A stretch of 64,000 nucleotides of DNA from Yaniella halotolerans DSM 15476. Its GTDB lineage: Bacteria; Actinomycetota; Actinomycetes; Actinomycetales; Micrococcaceae. This document shows, piece after piece, positions 53,558 through 59,522 of this stretch. The DNA lies in NCBI RefSeq assembly GCF_000420805.1, contig NZ_ATVQ01000001.1, positions 124,001-188,000 of the forward strand. Reading direction: 5' to 3'. Each line of letters starts with the position of its first letter. Position 1 is the stretch's first letter. The translations under genes and the position numbers were made by a program. The notes below the pieces were generated by a model, which was given only the letters and a program-made list of their open reading frames with translations, was not told the DNA's origin and did not search any database.

Positions 53558-55357
53558 CTAGTCGAGTCGTTCAGACAGTTCCAGCCAGCGTTCCTCCAGC
53601 TGCGCTACTTCGGCTTCTACGTCGCCAAGTTCTGCCCCAAGCTGTTGCATGCCTTCATAATCGCTTTGATCATGGTCAGCCAATTGTTGTTGCAACCGTT
53701 TGATGAGCTCACCTTGTTTTTCAAGTTTGCGCTCGATCGCTGATACTTCTTTTTGAGCGGCTTTGCGCTCTGCACCGTGCAACGCGTTGACGTTCTTGGG
53801 TTTCTTCTCGGCCTTGGTGCCGGCTTGCATTGGCTGCGCGCCTTGTAACTGGTTTTGTTGTTGGGCTAACCGAAGGTACTCTTCAACTCCCCCTGGAACG
53901 TGTCGTAGTTTTCCGCCCAGGATGGCATATTGCTGATCGGTAACGCGCTCGAGCAAATACCGGTCGTGCGAAACTACGATCAGGGTACCGGGCCAGGAAT
54001 CGAGTAAATCTTCCATGGCGGTTAACATATCGGAATCTACATCGTTCGTCGGCTCGTCAAGCACGATCACATTTGGCTCGCTGAGGAGCAGTAACAATAA
54101 TTGCAGTCGACGTTTTTGACCGCCTGAGAGTTCTTGTACTCGCGCGGACAGATGTTCGCGGCGGAAGCCAAGACGTTCTAAAAGTTGTGCCGGGGTATGG
54201 TCCTTGCCGTCGATTGTGAACGTCGTTTTCGTGTTTGCCAGTACTTCACGAACCCGGTCGGCACCAATCTTCTCTAACTGGGAAAATTGCTGATCCAACA
54301 TCCCGATTCGGACCGTCTTACCGTGCTTGACTCGTCCCGCAGTAGGTTCCACTTCTCCGGTCACTAAACCGAGCAACGTTGATTTACCTGCACCGTTGGC
54401 ACCAAGAATGCCGGTACGCTCCCCCGGTCCAAGACGCCACGTGATATTGCGTAGTATTTCCCGCTGCCCAAAGCTCACGCTGACATCTTCAATATCAACG
54501 ACGTCCTTGCCCAACCGTGCGACGGCAAGACGCTTCAGCTCGATCGTATCGCGCACGGGTGGAACATCCGAGATCAGCTGGTTCGCAGCGTCGACACGGA
54601 ATTTTGGCTTCGAAGTTCTAGCTGGCGCACCACGTCGCAGCCACGCTAATTCTTTACGCAAAATATTTTGACGTTTTGCTTCACTCGCGGCTGCCATCCG
54701 GTCGCGTTCCACACGCTGGAGTACATACGCCGCATAACCGCCTTCAAACGGCTCTACGATGCCATCGTGAACTTCCCACGTCTGGTTACATACCTCATCT
54801 AGGAACCACCGATCGTGAGTAATCACTAACAGACCGCCGGCATTTTGCGCCCACCGCCGTTTCACATGCTCGGCCAACCAGGCGATGCCTTCCACGTCCA
54901 AATGGTTTGTGGGTTCATCAAGGGCCAGAATATCCCAGTCACCGATGAGCAACTTCGCCAGCGCAACACGGCGGCGTTGCCCGCCCGAGAGCGATCCTAC
55001 CGTCGCGTCCCAATCGAGGTCTGCGACCAGCCCGCGAATCACATCCCGGATTTTCGCATCCCCGGCCCACTCGTGCTCGGCAAAATCACCAACAACCGCT
55101 TGCCCCACGGACAGGGCTGGGTCGACGGTATCAGCTTGGTCAAGCATACCGATCGTGATATCACTGCGAACGGTAACTTGTCCCGAGTCCGGTTCGACTC
55201 GGCCGGTCAGCAGTTTCATCAGCGTGGATTTACCATCACCGTTGCGTCCTACGATGCCAATGCGGTCCCCTGCCGAGACCCCCATCGTGACTGACGTGAG
55301 TACTTTTTGCGTGGGGTATTCGAAATGAAGGGCTTCTGCCCCTAAAAGATGAGCCAT
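53558..55357 (-). CDS. ABC-F family ATPase
   Basis: Cytosolic protein with two tandem ATP-binding cassettes and no membrane domain, the ABC-F type that acts on the ribosome (translation factors or antibiotic protection). Walker A motifs GRNGDGKST and GANGAGKST, signatures LSGGQRRRVALAKLL and LSGGQKRRLQLLLLL, both Walker B sites end in LDEPTN. The linker after the first cassette has the arm-like RQNILRKELAWLRRG. A C-terminal coiled coil (about 500-595) follows. ATG 55357 (MAHLLGAE) matches homologues; ATG 55369 is also possible. Follows the ispE-locus gene as in related genomes. Confidence 0.93.
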   Translation of the reverse strand: MAHLLGAEALHFEYPTQKVLTSVTMGVSAGDRIGIVGRNGDGKSTLMKLLTGRVEPDSGQVTVRSDITIGMLDQADTVDPALSVGQAVVGDFAEHEWAGDAKIRDVIRGLVADLDWDATVGSLSGGQRRRVALAKLLIGDWDILALDEPTNHLDVEGIAWLAEHVKRRWAQNAGGLLVITHDRWFLDEVCNQTWEVHDGIVEPFEGGYAAYVLQRVERDRMAAASEAKRQNILRKELAWLRRGAPARTSKPKFRVDAANQLISDVPPVRDTIELKRLAVARLGKDVVDIEDVSVSFGQREILRNITWRLGPGERTGILGANGAGKSTLLGLVTGEVEPTAGRVKHGKTVRIGMLDQQFSQLEKIGADRVREVLANTKTTFTIDGKDHTPAQLLERLGFRREHLSARVQELSGGQKRRLQLLLLLLSEPNVIVLDEPTNDVDSDMLTAMEDLLDSWPGTLIVVSHDRYLLERVTDQQYAILGGKLRHVPGGVEEYLRLAQQQNQLQGAQPMQAGTKAEKKPKNVNALHGAERKAAQKEVSAIERKLEKQGELIKRLQQQLADHDQSDYEGMQQLGAELGDVEAEVAQLEERWLELSERLD

Positions 55358-55431
55358 AACCTGACCCATGATAGTTCACTTATTCGACAACAGCGCACGC
55401 ATTCGTTCAGAGCGCGACGCACCTAGAACCC

Positions 55432-56400
55432 TTAGATCAGGTGTGCGCCGGCGACGGGGCCATATTCTGCAACAGCTGAGATTTCCATGTGCTGTTCGAA
55501 TCGTTCCGCCAGGTCGCTGGCTGTGCTCATCTCTGCCGCGAGAAAAACTAGTGACGGCCCGCGGTCTATAGTCTGAGCGGCGAGTGCACCTTCGTCCATG
55601 CCCGCCGTCAGCCAATCGTTATGTTCTGGCAAGATACTGACCAAGGCCGGTTGGAAATCGTTGTGCATCATCAAGGCTAGTTGGCTAGCATCCCCGCGTG
55701 CTACAGCCTCGACGAGCTCTGGATCAAACTCGAGTGTATTGCGATCCGGCACGGCGTCCTGGGCCTGTCGAAGCCGCCGTACTTCTTGGAACATCTCGCT
55801 TTCATCGAGCTCTGCTGCAGCTGGTACAAGGACCATCGCAACTTCTGATTGAACTAACACCGGTGTTATCAGGACCTCGGTTGCATCGACATGAGTCATG
55901 ACGGCGCCCCCGGTAATTGCCTCAGCGACTCCGTCTCCCACCCTCTGGGCAAGGCGTGCTAACTCTTCACGCGCAATGGAGGCGTCCCAGAGCGCTGCCA
56001 AAGCAACTAATACCGCGGCGGCGGCAGCACCTCTGCCACCCATATGGGTTTCAAAAGGGATGTGTTTTTGGATTGTAATGTCGAGCCCGGAAACATTCTT
56101 GGATCGGCTGAGGTGTTGACGAAGTTCATCCACGGCACGAAATATATAGACCAAATCGTCATGCGGCACGTTTGCATAGTCGATGAGTGCGTGAGAAGGA
56201 TCTTCGAATTTGACGAGCACTTCTTTATCTACGCGCATCCGAATGGACGCTATGTCATACCGTGAGACCGCCAGCTTCAAACTGAGCACGGCTGGCTCCT
56301 GTTCGCCACCAGACACTCCCACTTGGTTCGTTACCGACACCATGGCCGGGGCCTGCGCCGTGACGGCTGTTTGTTCCCGGTATTCAAGCTGTGCGCTCAT
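55432..56400 (-). CDS. IspE-locus GHMP-kinase-like protein lacking the catalytic residues
   Basis: Coupled to rsmA and followed by an ABC-F gene, this is the standard actinobacterial place for ispE (4-diphosphocytidyl-methylerythritol kinase of the MEP isoprenoid pathway). The 322-aa product still aligns in outline: QAPA near residue 16, HIPFETHMGGRGAAAAAVLVALAALWD in place of the ATP loop, and GGAV after it. But the catalytic Lys of PAK(I/V)N is Met20 (QAPAMVSV), the catalytic Asp of GADVPF is Gly157 (VGDGVAE), the DGYH motif is gone, and the glycine-rich GG(S/M)A loop is altered. An Asp lies one position earlier (156). The frame is intact and the length is normal. Probable pseudoenzyme or repurposed protein. 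Confidence 0.75.
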   Translation of the reverse strand: MSAQLEYREQTAVTAQAPAMVSVTNQVGVSGGEQEPAVLSLKLAVSRYDIASIRMRVDKEVLVKFEDPSHALIDYANVPHDDLVYIFRAVDELRQHLSRSKNVSGLDITIQKHIPFETHMGGRGAAAAAVLVALAALWDASIAREELARLAQRVGDGVAEAITGGAVMTHVDATEVLITPVLVQSEVAMVLVPAAAELDESEMFQEVRRLRQAQDAVPDRNTLEFDPELVEAVARGDASQLALMMHNDFQPALVSILPEHNDWLTAGMDEGALAAQTIDRGPSLVFLAAEMSTASDLAERFEQHMEISAVAEYGPVAGAHLI

Positions 56401-57293
56401 TGTGCATCCATTTGCTGTTTCTGCTCGGCGATCCGTGCAAATTGTTCTACCGACAAGATCTCCCCGCGTGCTTTGGGATCGACGTCGGCGGCCACCAGAA
56501 GCTCTTCGGCTTCAGCACCGGACCCGGCCCATTTGTTCAAGGCGGCACGTAGTGTTTTGCGGCGCTGAGCAAATGCGGCGTCAATGACCTCGAAGACTTG
56601 TCCACGCGTGGCAGTGGTGGCCGGGGGCTGGCGTGCGGTGAAATGTACGAGGCCAGAAGTGATGCGGGGTGCCGGCCAGAAGACTTTCGTTCCAACGTTT
56701 CCAGCTGAGGTCGCTTCGGCGTACCAGCCCATCTTCACAGACGGTACACCGTAAATTTTGGATCCCGGCGCCGCCACAATCCGTTCGGCAACTTCCTGCT
56801 GCACCATGACCAGACCGTGTTGGATGCTGGGCAGTTCTGCCAAAATATGCAGCATAACCGGTACCGCCACGTTATACGGCAGATTCGCCACAATAGCGGT
56901 TGGTGGTCCCTCCGCGATCGCAGGTCTTGCTTCAATGATCTCGCTGTGGGTGATCCGCAAGGCATCCGCTTCAATCACTGAGAGTCGTTCTGCACTATCC
57001 GGACGCCATTGCTCAACGGTGGTTGCCAATCGGTTGGCCACCGGTGGATCGATTTCAATTGCAGTCACCGCCTGCGCGGCGTCCAAAATACCCAGGGTAA
57101 GTGAACCGAGTCCCGGACCAATTTCGAGGACATGCTCCGTTGCTGCGAGATGTGCGGCACCAACGATTCGCCGAATCGTGTTGGGGTCAATCACATAGTT
57201 TTGGCCTAACGTTTTTGTTGGCCGCAAGTCGAGGATATCGGCAAGCTGGCGGATATCGGAGGCAGATAAGAGCGCATGTTGTTCTGAAGTCAC
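56397..57293 (-). CDS. rsmA: 16S rRNA (adenine(1518)-N(6)/adenine(1519)-N(6))-dimethyltransferase
   Basis: Dimethylates two adjacent adenines in the 3'-terminal hairpin of 16S rRNA during ribosome assembly. The SAM site EIGPGLGSLTLGIL and the catalytic NLPYNVAVP motif are intact, after the N-terminal TKTLGQNYVIDP. 298 aa. Its stop overlaps the next gene by 4 bases. Confidence 0.95.
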   Translation of the reverse strand: MTSEQHALLSASDIRQLADILDLRPTKTLGQNYVIDPNTIRRIVGAAHLAATEHVLEIGPGLGSLTLGILDAAQAVTAIEIDPPVANRLATTVEQWRPDSAERLSVIEADALRITHSEIIEARPAIAEGPPTAIVANLPYNVAVPVMLHILAELPSIQHGLVMVQQEVAERIVAAPGSKIYGVPSVKMGWYAEATSAGNVGTKVFWPAPRITSGLVHFTARQPPATTATRGQVFEVIDAAFAQRRKTLRAALNKWAGSGAEAEELLVAADVDPKARGEILSVEQFARIAEQKQQMDAQ

Positions 57294-57406: not shown

Positions 57407-58393
57407 TTAGCGCAGTCCCATTGCAGAGGTGCATGCTGGCCACTGGCCCCAGCCTGCCTGTGCTTGCAGTTTAGAAGCGATGGCGATCTGCTGTTCGCGA
57501 GTTGCTTGGTCAGCGGTTGGTGCATACTGTCCGCCACCCATGGAGTTCCAGGTGGTGGGGTTGAACTGCAGCCCACCGTGGTAGCCGTTCCCGGTGTTAG
57601 TGGACCAGTTGCCGCCCGATTCACATTCGGCCAGACGGTCCCACACCGAACCATTAGCTACAGAAGGTGCTGAGCTGCTGCTCGAAGATGAGTCTGATGA
57701 ATCTGAGGAGGATGATTCAGAGGAAGACGAGTCCGACGAGCTGGAAGGCTCTGGTTCAGGCTCTTCTTCTTTAGTACCGCGGAGAACAACAGCGTTGGTT
57801 GGTTCTTCGGTGACTTCGCGGTTGATTTCAGTCTTATCGACTTCTTCGCCGTTTTCGGTGGTGACCTCGTAGGTCACACTGGCTACACCGTTTTCACCTT
57901 CGGTGTCAGTTTTGGTTTTGCCCTTCTCGAGAGAACCGTCGTTTTCGTAAGTGGTTTCGTATTCGACGGGTTCTTCTTCGGTGACTTCAGTCGTCTCAAC
58001 GACGGTCACTGTAATTGCAGTGCTCGCGTTGATGTTCTGATCAGGCTTTGGAGAAACCTTGTCGTCTCCGCCCACTGACACGTTGGCATTGTCCAGGACG
58101 TCCTGAACGGTTTCACCGGTGGTCAGAACTTCTTTCGTATCCTTACCCACGGTGATTTCCATGAGCTGAGGTACCTGAATCTGGTCAGCGCTGAGCGGTG
58201 TAATCGATGAAACACGCTCGATGTCGAGTGGCTGATCTTCGGAAGGCTGTTCTACGCTGTCGGCGTCGGCAGTGACTGTTTTATCGGCATTAGCCTGAGT
58301 GATAACAAAAGCTGCAAGGCCGCCTACGACGAGGACCAGGGCTGCAACCTGCGCAACAATCTTCGTCAGTGTGCCGCTGAAAATGTTAGACAT
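57407..58393 (-). CDS. Resuscitation-promoting factor (RpfB-like)
   Basis: Secreted or membrane-tethered muralytic enzyme that stimulates growth of dormant cells. From ATG 58393: an N-terminal signal/anchor helix (about 11-31), a DUF348 repeat (about 78-105, ITVGKDTKEVLTTGETVQDVL), a G5 domain (about 130-195), a Ser/Glu-rich linker (216-241), and the C-terminal Rpf lysozyme-like domain (247-328) with catalytic Glu258 in the CESGGNW motif and a likely disulfide Cys257-Cys321. A TTG start at 58456 is in frame but would put 21 residues before the signal. Flanked by tatD and rsmA as in other actinobacteria, with only one DUF348 repeat against three in mycobacterial RpfB. Confidence 0.9.
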   Translation of the reverse strand: MSNIFSGTLTKIVAQVAALVLVVGGLAAFVITQANADKTVTADADSVEQPSEDQPLDIERVSSITPLSADQIQVPQLMEITVGKDTKEVLTTGETVQDVLDNANVSVGGDDKVSPKPDQNINASTAITVTVVETTEVTEEEPVEYETTYENDGSLEKGKTKTDTEGENGVASVTYEVTTENGEEVDKTEINREVTEEPTNAVVLRGTKEEEPEPEPSSSSDSSSSESSSSDSSDSSSSSSSAPSVANGSVWDRLAECESGGNWSTNTGNGYHGGLQFNPTTWNSMGGGQYAPTADQATREQQIAIASKLQAQAGWGQWPACTSAMGLR

Positions 58394-58464
58394 ATAGAAA
58401 AATCCATAGGGTTTGGGGTTCCGACGCGGCACTAGACGCCTATTCGTCGAGGACAATACGCACG

Positions 58465-58556: not shown

Positions 58557-59522
58557 CTAGTCAGTATGGAATTTACCATATACGCGCTGAGTGTTATCGA
58601 AGATAACGGAACCGAGATCTTCAACGGTTTGGCTACGTGTCTCCGCTAGTTGGTAGAGGGTGTGCGGCACAAGATAGGGCGCATTCGGACGACCCCGGTA
58701 TGGGTGCGGCGTAAGGAACGGGGAATCCGTTTCAACGAGGAGCAATTCTTGGCGCATTTGCTGGGCCGCGGCGCGAGAGGCATTGTTATTTTTGAATGTC
58801 ACGACGCCCGAGAACGACGCATACCACCCGTGTTCATTCAGGATTTTTGCCATCTCGGCGTCACCCGAATAGGAGTGGAAAACCACGTGTTCGGGGAGTT
58901 TGTCCATAGATAACAAAGTGGCCACAACGTCGTCGTGCGCTTCCCTATCATGAATCTGCAGGGCGAGCCCAAGCTCCACCGCCATTTCAATATGACGTTT
59001 AAATGCGTACTTTTGAATCTCCCAGTTTTCTTCGCCCTCGGTGCGGTAATAGTCCAAACCGGTTTCGCCGATGCAAACGACCCGTGGATGCTCGGCCAGT
59101 TGCCGAATCGTCCCTATGGCCTCATCAAGTTCGTTACGCTCTGCCAGGTGCACCGTGTCATTTGGGTGGATAGCCAATGCCCCTCGCAAGCGGGGCTCTT
59201 GCTCGAGAGCATCGAGGGTATATCTAGCAGATTCAAGATCGGTGGCAACCTGGATAGCGCCGACGACATTCACGCTTGCCGCAGCGTCCATCGCTTCGGT
59301 TGGTGTGACCTGAACGAGTCCATCGCGAAAATCTAGGTGCGCATGGTTGTCGATCACAGGCACAGGCGATCGTTCCGGGACCGGCGGATACACCAGTTTC
59401 CGCTTCCTACCGCTGTACTCTTCCGTCGTCGATCGAACTTGGTCGCCACTATTGACCGACTGTTGAGCTTTGGGCAAGTACTGTTCTGGTGTTTGGTGCT
59501 GTGGTTGTTCTGTGGTGGACAT
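58557..59522 (-). CDS. tatD: TatD family metal-dependent hydrolase
   Basis: TIM-barrel metal-dependent 3'-5' DNA exonuclease/deoxyribonuclease family. Metal ligands: DNHAHLD (HxH, about residues 59-65), GETGLDYY with Glu, the IHDREAHDD His, VFHSYSGD His and ETDSPFL Asp. The first ~54 residues before the barrel are polar and Gln/Ser-rich, an extension common in this group. 321 aa. Located upstream of rpf and rsmA on the same strand. Confidence 0.92.
   Translation of the reverse strand: MSTTEQPQHQTPEQYLPKAQQSVNSGDQVRSTTEEYSGRKRKLVYPPVPERSPVPVIDNHAHLDFRDGLVQVTPTEAMDAAASVNVVGAIQVATDLESARYTLDALEQEPRLRGALAIHPNDTVHLAERNELDEAIGTIRQLAEHPRVVCIGETGLDYYRTEGEENWEIQKYAFKRHIEMAVELGLALQIHDREAHDDVVATLLSMDKLPEHVVFHSYSGDAEMAKILNEHGWYASFSGVVTFKNNNASRAAAQQMRQELLLVETDSPFLTPHPYRGRPNAPYLVPHTLYQLAETRSQTVEDLGSVIFDNTQRVYGKFHTD

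Follow-up and report, generated by a model that had tools for sequence, protein, structure and literature searches.

A probable IspE-derived pseudoenzyme gene beside rsmA in the mevalonate-pathway genome of Yaniella halotolerans

The gene at 55432-56400 of the window (the whole stretch of 64,000 nucleotides of Yaniella halotolerans DSM 15476 analysed here) stands at the position of ispE and encodes a protein of 322 residues that lacks both catalytic residues of IspE, in a genome that carries a complete mevalonate cluster. The protein is under purifying selection and its conservation has moved to the C-terminal domain. Judged by its sequence, it is a degenerate IspE descendant rather than an IspE, and its kinase activity has probably been lost. 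With its catalytic residues lost and its frame and sequence under purifying selection, it is classed as a pseudoenzyme of the predicted GHMP fold, a known kind of protein. We consider it likely that this pseudoenzyme was retained for a role in binding, not in catalysis, once the mevalonate pathway had replaced the MEP pathway.

An IspE descendant with altered motifs

The gene, like every feature of the window described below, lies on the minus strand; it was identified from its open reading frame, its profile matches and its alignment with relatives. The best NCBIfam match of the protein is the actinobacterial IspE family NF002870, with 151.4 bits for a cut-off of 286, and TIGR00154 gives 70.8 bits for a cut-off of 138.7; the curated IspE cut-offs are missed, and the overall homology and length fit. 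The IspE of G011, a relative that uses the ispH pathway, reaches 173.6 bits with TIGR00154 and 335.5 with NF002870. Among the Pfam domains, PF00288 (GHMP_kinases_N) is found in the window protein with 46.6 bits (cut-off 22.3) and PF08544, the C-terminal GHMP domain, remains under its cut-off (16.7 bits, cut-off 21). The mycobacterial IspE structures 3pyd and 4dxl are the top PDB matches by sequence, and positions 8-322 of the genus profile align to 4dxl (E = 3.1e-31). A Foldseek search with a low-confidence AlphaFold2 model (seven close sequences; mean pLDDT 49.8, below 50 from residue 165 onward) returned the mycobacterial IspE 4ed4 first (E = 2.1e-13), with a TM-score of only 0.41.

In the IspE of Aquifex, catalysis was assigned to Lys9 and Asp130, and the P-loop and motif 3 were described (PMC2655357). 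The alignment with relatives shows motif 1 of the window protein (residues 18-22, 56335-56349) as PAMVS where relatives mostly have PGK[IV]N, with Met20 for the catalytic Lys and a Ser in the column of N22. Further along, EQEP is found for DGYH at residues 33-36 (56293-56304), GGRGAAA for GGGSADA in motif 2, the P-loop (residues 121-127, 56020-56040), GDGVAE for GADVPF at residues 155-160 (55921-55938), with Gly157 for the catalytic Asp, and IDRGPS for SGSGPT in motif 3 (residues 278-283, 55552-55569). A preliminary description of this DNA had reported Met20 and Gly157 at the catalytic places, the loss of DGYH and an altered ATP loop, all of which the alignment bears out; it adds the change in motif 3. 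Met and Gly occupy the two catalytic columns in the eight genomes of the genus that hold the gene, the window genome included, and the presence of the same residues in eight genomes rules out a sequencing or annotation error. The possibility that Asp156 fills the role of the lost Asp, also raised beforehand, falls because this position is not conserved across the genus (D, D, A, D, A, L, D and Y in the eight proteins). As regards a phage origin, a viral_contigs scan with patterns from the single window protein returned no relative.

Isoprenoid pathways and IspE across the family

The preliminary description had proposed that the organism either makes isoprenoids in another way, by mevalonate or with a second ispE, or uses the protein in a new role. 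The window genome (2,775,456 bases in 6 contigs, completeness 100) contains six mevalonate genes in a row, found at locus L033 in the 19.5 kb fetched around HMG-CoA reductase, in the order mevalonate kinase, diphosphomevalonate decarboxylase, phosphomevalonate kinase, type 2 IPP isomerase, HMG-CoA reductase and HMG-CoA synthase. Five of the six proteins pass the NCBIfam cut-off for the family that fits each of them best; the HMG-CoA reductase is below its own (262.3, cut-off 441.8) and above that of Pfam (258.1, cut-off 27). The cluster lies elsewhere in the genome (HMG-CoA reductase at C1:423564-424574, the window at C1:124001-188000). The searches suggested for other MEP genes left ispH, dxr, ispF and ispG all without a match in the window genome. 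The mevalonate part of the proposal was thus substantiated and the second ispE was not: TIGR00154 run on the window genome gives a single match, the gene at 55432-56400, which rules out a second copy. The IspE profile A1 counts three matches in this genome (G000), namely this gene and two weaker ones, which may be other GHMP proteins of the genome. No paper on Yaniella and mevalonate was found in the open-access literature, and the genome note of Enteractinococcus helveticum mentions 60 isoprenoid-metabolism genes and neither mevalonate nor ispE (PMC4966478).

The distribution of both pathways was surveyed in an even sample of 149 family genomes taken out of a larger group. Each genome has exactly one of the two marker genes, 135 of them ispH and the other 14 HMG-CoA reductase. 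The mevalonate genomes are eight of the window's genus (the window genome included), G009, G024, G046, G073, G100 and G135; dxr, ispF and ispG have no match in any of the 14 and are present in all five comparison genomes. A motif-based scan for named relatives returned six loci, three from Yaniella, two from Enteractinococcus and one from a Micrococcaceae bacterium. Within genus g3, MEP and mevalonate pathways alternate, with ispH in G010, G054, G079, G119, G148 and G162 and HMG-CoA reductase in G100 and G135, and no ispE was found in these two mevalonate members. In G132, a genome with 4% contamination, ispH exceeds the cut-off twice (E = 3.5e-94 and 1.2e-87).

IspE profile matches were obtained in 148 of the 149 genomes, only weakly in G046, G073, G100 and G135; the sole genome without one is G087 (82% complete, ispH present). 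The catalytic columns were read in 152 IspE proteins, from 134 ispH genomes, 10 mevalonate holders and eight of 14 genomes of the order that belong to other families. Among the ispH genomes, 133 of 134 have the Lys, 133 the Asp and 132 both, as do the eight genomes of other families. Two genomes depart from this: in G110 the match is missing the N-terminal part normally present, and in G116, where the gene runs over more than one frame, only a piece of 77 residues entered the alignment. None of the 10 mevalonate holders has both residues: the Lys is absent from all of them (8 Met, 2 Arg) and the Asp is kept in one (G009). At the split locus of G116 (L201, G116:C11:96076-97278), ispE matches as two separate pieces, the 77-residue one in one frame, which is either an assembly error or a broken gene. 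A further genome of the window's genus, G007 (71% complete, outside the 149-genome census), has no match for the gene.

No ispE was found in the mevalonate genomes G046, G073, G100 and G135. The weak match examined in each of them is not a hidden ispE, the best NCBIfam match being homoserine kinase in G046, G100 and G135 and mevalonate kinase in G073; G135 has a second weak IspE-profile place near HMG-CoA reductase. About 60 bases separate rsmA from the ABC ATPase gene in G046 and G073, which indicates that ispE was cleanly lost there. In G100 the same two genes are on opposite strands with another gene between them, and in G135 no abcF was found within the 10 kb fetched. Because no ispE was found in these four mevalonate genomes, the role of the retained protein is not a general one.

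Stages of the change and gene trees

Stages of the change appear to be visible in living relatives, with a canonical IspE in G011, intermediate forms in G009 and G024 and the complete change in Yaniella and Enteractinococcus. The TIGR00154 scores are 173.6 for G011, 134.1 for G024, 126.0 for G009 and 70.8 for the window protein. Both intermediates have Arg at the catalytic Lys column and altered P-loops, and G009 retains the Asp at the catalytic column.

Five mevalonate-gene trees were built, phosphomevalonate kinase being outside them. Four of the five set the genus, G009 and G024 apart from G100 and G135 and, where present, from G046 and G073; the isomerase tree does not resolve that grouping. 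Among the neighbours of ispE, the AbcF tree joins G009 and G024 to the genus (87/84), the RsmA tree places G024 with the genus (98/98) and G009 with the ispH-pathway G011 (91/75), and the TatD tree also places G009 with G011 (80/90). These trees are thus at odds on whether the genus, G009 and G024 share one swap. In the regions fetched at L086 and L073 (G046 and G073, genus g39), the HMG-CoA reductase and synthase of the window genome had no tblastn match, yet PF00368 matches strongly; separate acquisition of the mevalonate genes of genus g39 is suggested.

Gene neighbourhood and coupling to rsmA

The start of the gene overlaps the stop of the upstream gene in the sequence ATGA (56397-56400), confirming an open frame that overlaps rsmA at the ispE position. 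This upstream operon partner is a full-length rsmA (ksgA, 56397-57293; PF00398, 156.3 bits). Downstream lies an ABC ATPase gene (53558-55369) with two ABC_tran stretches, which we take to be of the ABC-F type. The gene upstream of rsmA (57407-58456), an open reading frame matched in 12 of 16 loci, presumably has an Rpf-like C-terminal domain, and the one upstream of it (58557-59522), matched in 16 of 16 loci, presumably encodes a TatD-family hydrolase. Promoter and terminator sites around the operon are no more numerous than in shuffles. In G024, a second RsmA/KsgA-like methyltransferase match (C23:18074-18805, 134.2 bits, below the cut-off) exists besides the operon rsmA.

The order tatD-rpf-rsmA-ispE-abcF is at least partly common to ispH-pathway relatives, and at all 12 loci examined ispE and rsmA overlap by ATGA or GTGA, including those of the canonical ispE of G011 and G022. 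Since canonical genes share it, the overlap is not evidence of a new link with RsmA. The coupling is ancestral, and it implies that the two proteins are produced together. The possible tie of the window protein to RsmA or the ribosome is suggested by two things, the gene order and the start/stop overlap.

Selection and the shift of conservation

The frame is open in all eight genomes of the genus that hold the gene; in a simple neutral simulation, 7.7% of frames are still free of stops after 0.1 changes per site, and 0.1% after 0.3. dN/dS was computed for pairs with dS below 1.6 in both genes, a cut that 24 of the 28 genus pairs failed. In the four unsaturated pairs it equals 0.089, 0.118, 0.105 and 0.076 (0.079-0.126 with slightly different gene bounds), and 0.071, 0.070, 0.065 and 0.093 for rsmA in the same pairs. 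The dN/dS of the IspE-like gene falls within the spread of canonical IspE, 0.035-0.459 among the pairs listed (at most 10 per genus, six genera). The ratio of dN to that of rsmA has a median of 1.97 in the genus (1.32-2.37), against medians of 0.87-1.59, with ranges up to 2.27, in six ispH-pathway genera. Some relaxation of selection is possible in view of this faster change relative to rsmA. Together with the stepwise erosion of the catalytic motifs across the family seen in the TIGR00154 scores, the raised dN would agree with a decaying relic under relaxed selection that is still present. Nevertheless, the low dN/dS of the recent pairs (0.076-0.118), the open frames of all eight holders, the early loss of the frame predicted by the neutral simulation and a stretch that retains a mean identity of 0.91 (see below) make such a relic very improbable.

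The genus is invariant at 111 of the 318 aligned columns. At 51 of them its residue is present in at least 50% of 132 ispH-pathway relatives (the 134 ispH genomes minus G110 and G116), and at 29 in less than 5%. Of the 69 columns conserved to at least 95% in the 132 relatives, 18 stay invariant in the genus and 51 are not kept as such. Identities within the genus were compared along the protein to those in a sample of 600 ispH-pathway pairs that resemble the genus in overall identity (mean 0.606 vs 0.634); the eight genus proteins are closely related, and the shifts in conservation are not independent events. The largest drop, 0.39, is at DGYH; motif 2 and GADVPF each lose 0.16 and motif 3 loses 0.14, and identity is also lower at residues 167-200 (by 0.13) and 201-221 (by 0.08). 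Motif 1 (residues 13-24) drops by only 0.02 (0.75 vs 0.77), despite the Met for Lys, and this conservation, equal to that of the ispH relatives, means that constraint persists in part of what was the pocket. The gains lie at residues 242-258 (+0.26, 0.86 vs 0.60), 259-275 (+0.41, 0.91 vs 0.50), 289-304 (+0.19) and 305-322 (+0.28), with smaller ones elsewhere. By this comparison, residues 242-275 (ALMMHNDFQPALVSILPEHNDWLTAGMDEGALAA, 55576-55677) are the top-conserved stretch of the genus form; the C-terminal tail, residues 305-322 (55435-55488; identity 0.83 vs 0.55), contains a conserved AEYGPVAGA.

Several scenarios may account for this pattern; they partly overlap the explanation that we prefer, so that the probabilities expressed here do not add up to a whole. 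One is that the protein still acts as a kinase or another GHMP-fold enzyme, with a different catalytic arrangement and substrate. The PF00288 domain agrees with it, and so do the invariance of K112 and G121-G122 in the genus, a motif 1 conserved save for its Lys and the further invariant polar residues R47, D49, E60, E66, D67, R144 and E145. Yet the Lys and Asn of motif 1, Ser124 and Asp126 of motif 2, the catalytic Asp and the Ser of motif 3 have all changed, several of these residues are variable within the genus, and conservation is lost in four of the five active-site stretches; activity of this kind is improbable. Residual ligand binding may nevertheless persist, given that K112 and G121-G122 are kept and motif 1 is constrained. 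A special case of the pseudoenzyme would be a regulator of the new mevalonate pathway that senses a small molecule, such as an isoprenoid intermediate or a nucleotide. The fold, the pocket ancestry and the conserved motif 1 region speak for it. Gal3p of yeast, a GHMP family member, induces transcription (PMC11349215), which offers the sensor a parallel. The same loss of conservation in four of five active-site stretches and the distance of the gene from the mevalonate cluster stand against a sensor, and we find it about as improbable as a surviving enzyme.

Alternatively, the ancestral IspE could already have combined catalysis with a non-catalytic task, and the swap would have left just this older task in place, with no new function. 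Such a scenario agrees in part with the preferred explanation on the present function of the protein. The gene order and the start/stop overlap at least partly common to ispH-pathway relatives are as it would have them, and so is the invariance in the genus of 18 of the 69 strongly conserved columns. Against it, 29 of the positions invariant in the genus are derived, and residues 259-275 show much higher conservation there than in ispH-pathway relatives. Moreover, four mevalonate genomes yielded no ispE, and in two of them (G046 and G073) rsmA and abcF are adjacent. An exclusively ancestral role thus seems rather unlikely.

A probable non-catalytic binding role

A conserved copy that lacks its catalytic residues suggests another, non-catalytic job. 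The pathway is gone, the catalytic residues have been replaced, and the constraint is kept and shifted; together these findings point to a pseudoenzyme that acts by binding. The new role proposed in the preliminary description is supported, in general terms, by purifying selection and the altered conservation pattern; as another isoprenoid route is supported too, these two options are joint rather than alternative. The window gene descends from a genuine ispE, in a lineage of the family that, by its gene content, gained a complete mevalonate cluster and lost MEP genes. Freed from its role as a kinase, IspE lost both catalytic residues, the DGYH motif and its customary ATP loop, all the while remaining under purifying selection as its conservation moved toward the C-terminal domain. 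The resulting pseudoenzyme would be made together with RsmA through translational coupling and would bind a protein or nucleic-acid partner, mainly by its C-terminal domain. The likeliest class of partner would be RsmA or another ribosome-maturation factor, a proposal that we make tentatively. The full scenario, in which an orphaned IspE, translationally coupled and driven by its C-terminal domain, was recruited to assist or regulate RsmA or the maturation of ribosomes and became a GHMP pseudokinase of new function, is somewhat less probable still and should be taken as speculative.

This is a natural case, recognisable from gene content, of an enzyme that loses its pathway and persists as a conserved pseudoenzyme. 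The presence of canonical, intermediate and gene-less relatives in one family makes retention and loss directly comparable. It is also a warning for annotation, as an IspE label would imply an MEP pathway and an MEP drug target in mevalonate users.

Comparison with known systems

No description of this protein was found in the open-access literature by titles and abstract openings. It resembles the actinobacterial IspE of M. abscessus (4dxl/4ed4) and M. tuberculosis (3pyd) in its full-length homology and similar length, and the IspE of ispH-pathway relatives in its position after rsmA. It departs from IspE at both catalytic residues, at DGYH, at the Ser of the P-loop and at motif 3, and its host is without a match for ispH, dxr, ispF and ispG. 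Staphylococcus aureus, a mevalonate user, has an ispE-like gene near ksgA. Incomplete MEP sets exist beside a complete mevalonate pathway in Listeria and some Streptococcus and Enterococcus, for which a non-isoprenogenic use has been proposed (PMC13001223). The window gene is like these in being an MEP gene retained in a mevalonate user. The partial MEP pathway of Listeria, discussed as leading to an intermediate, ends at MEcDP (PMC13001223); unlike Listeria, the window genome has no match for four other MEP genes and keeps a lone remnant without catalytic residues.

Among GHMP proteins, Gal3p of yeast keeps ligand binding, a probable difference from the window protein. By description, the latter can be likened to Gal3p, the family member that serves as a transcriptional inducer (PMC11349215), and to XOL-1 of C. 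elegans, a regulator of the same fold for which ATP binding assays failed (PMC11349215). The window protein would share the GHMP fold with XOL-1, the regulatory role being that of XOL-1; whereas XOL-1 is a sex determination factor of an animal, the window protein is bacterial and derived from IspE.
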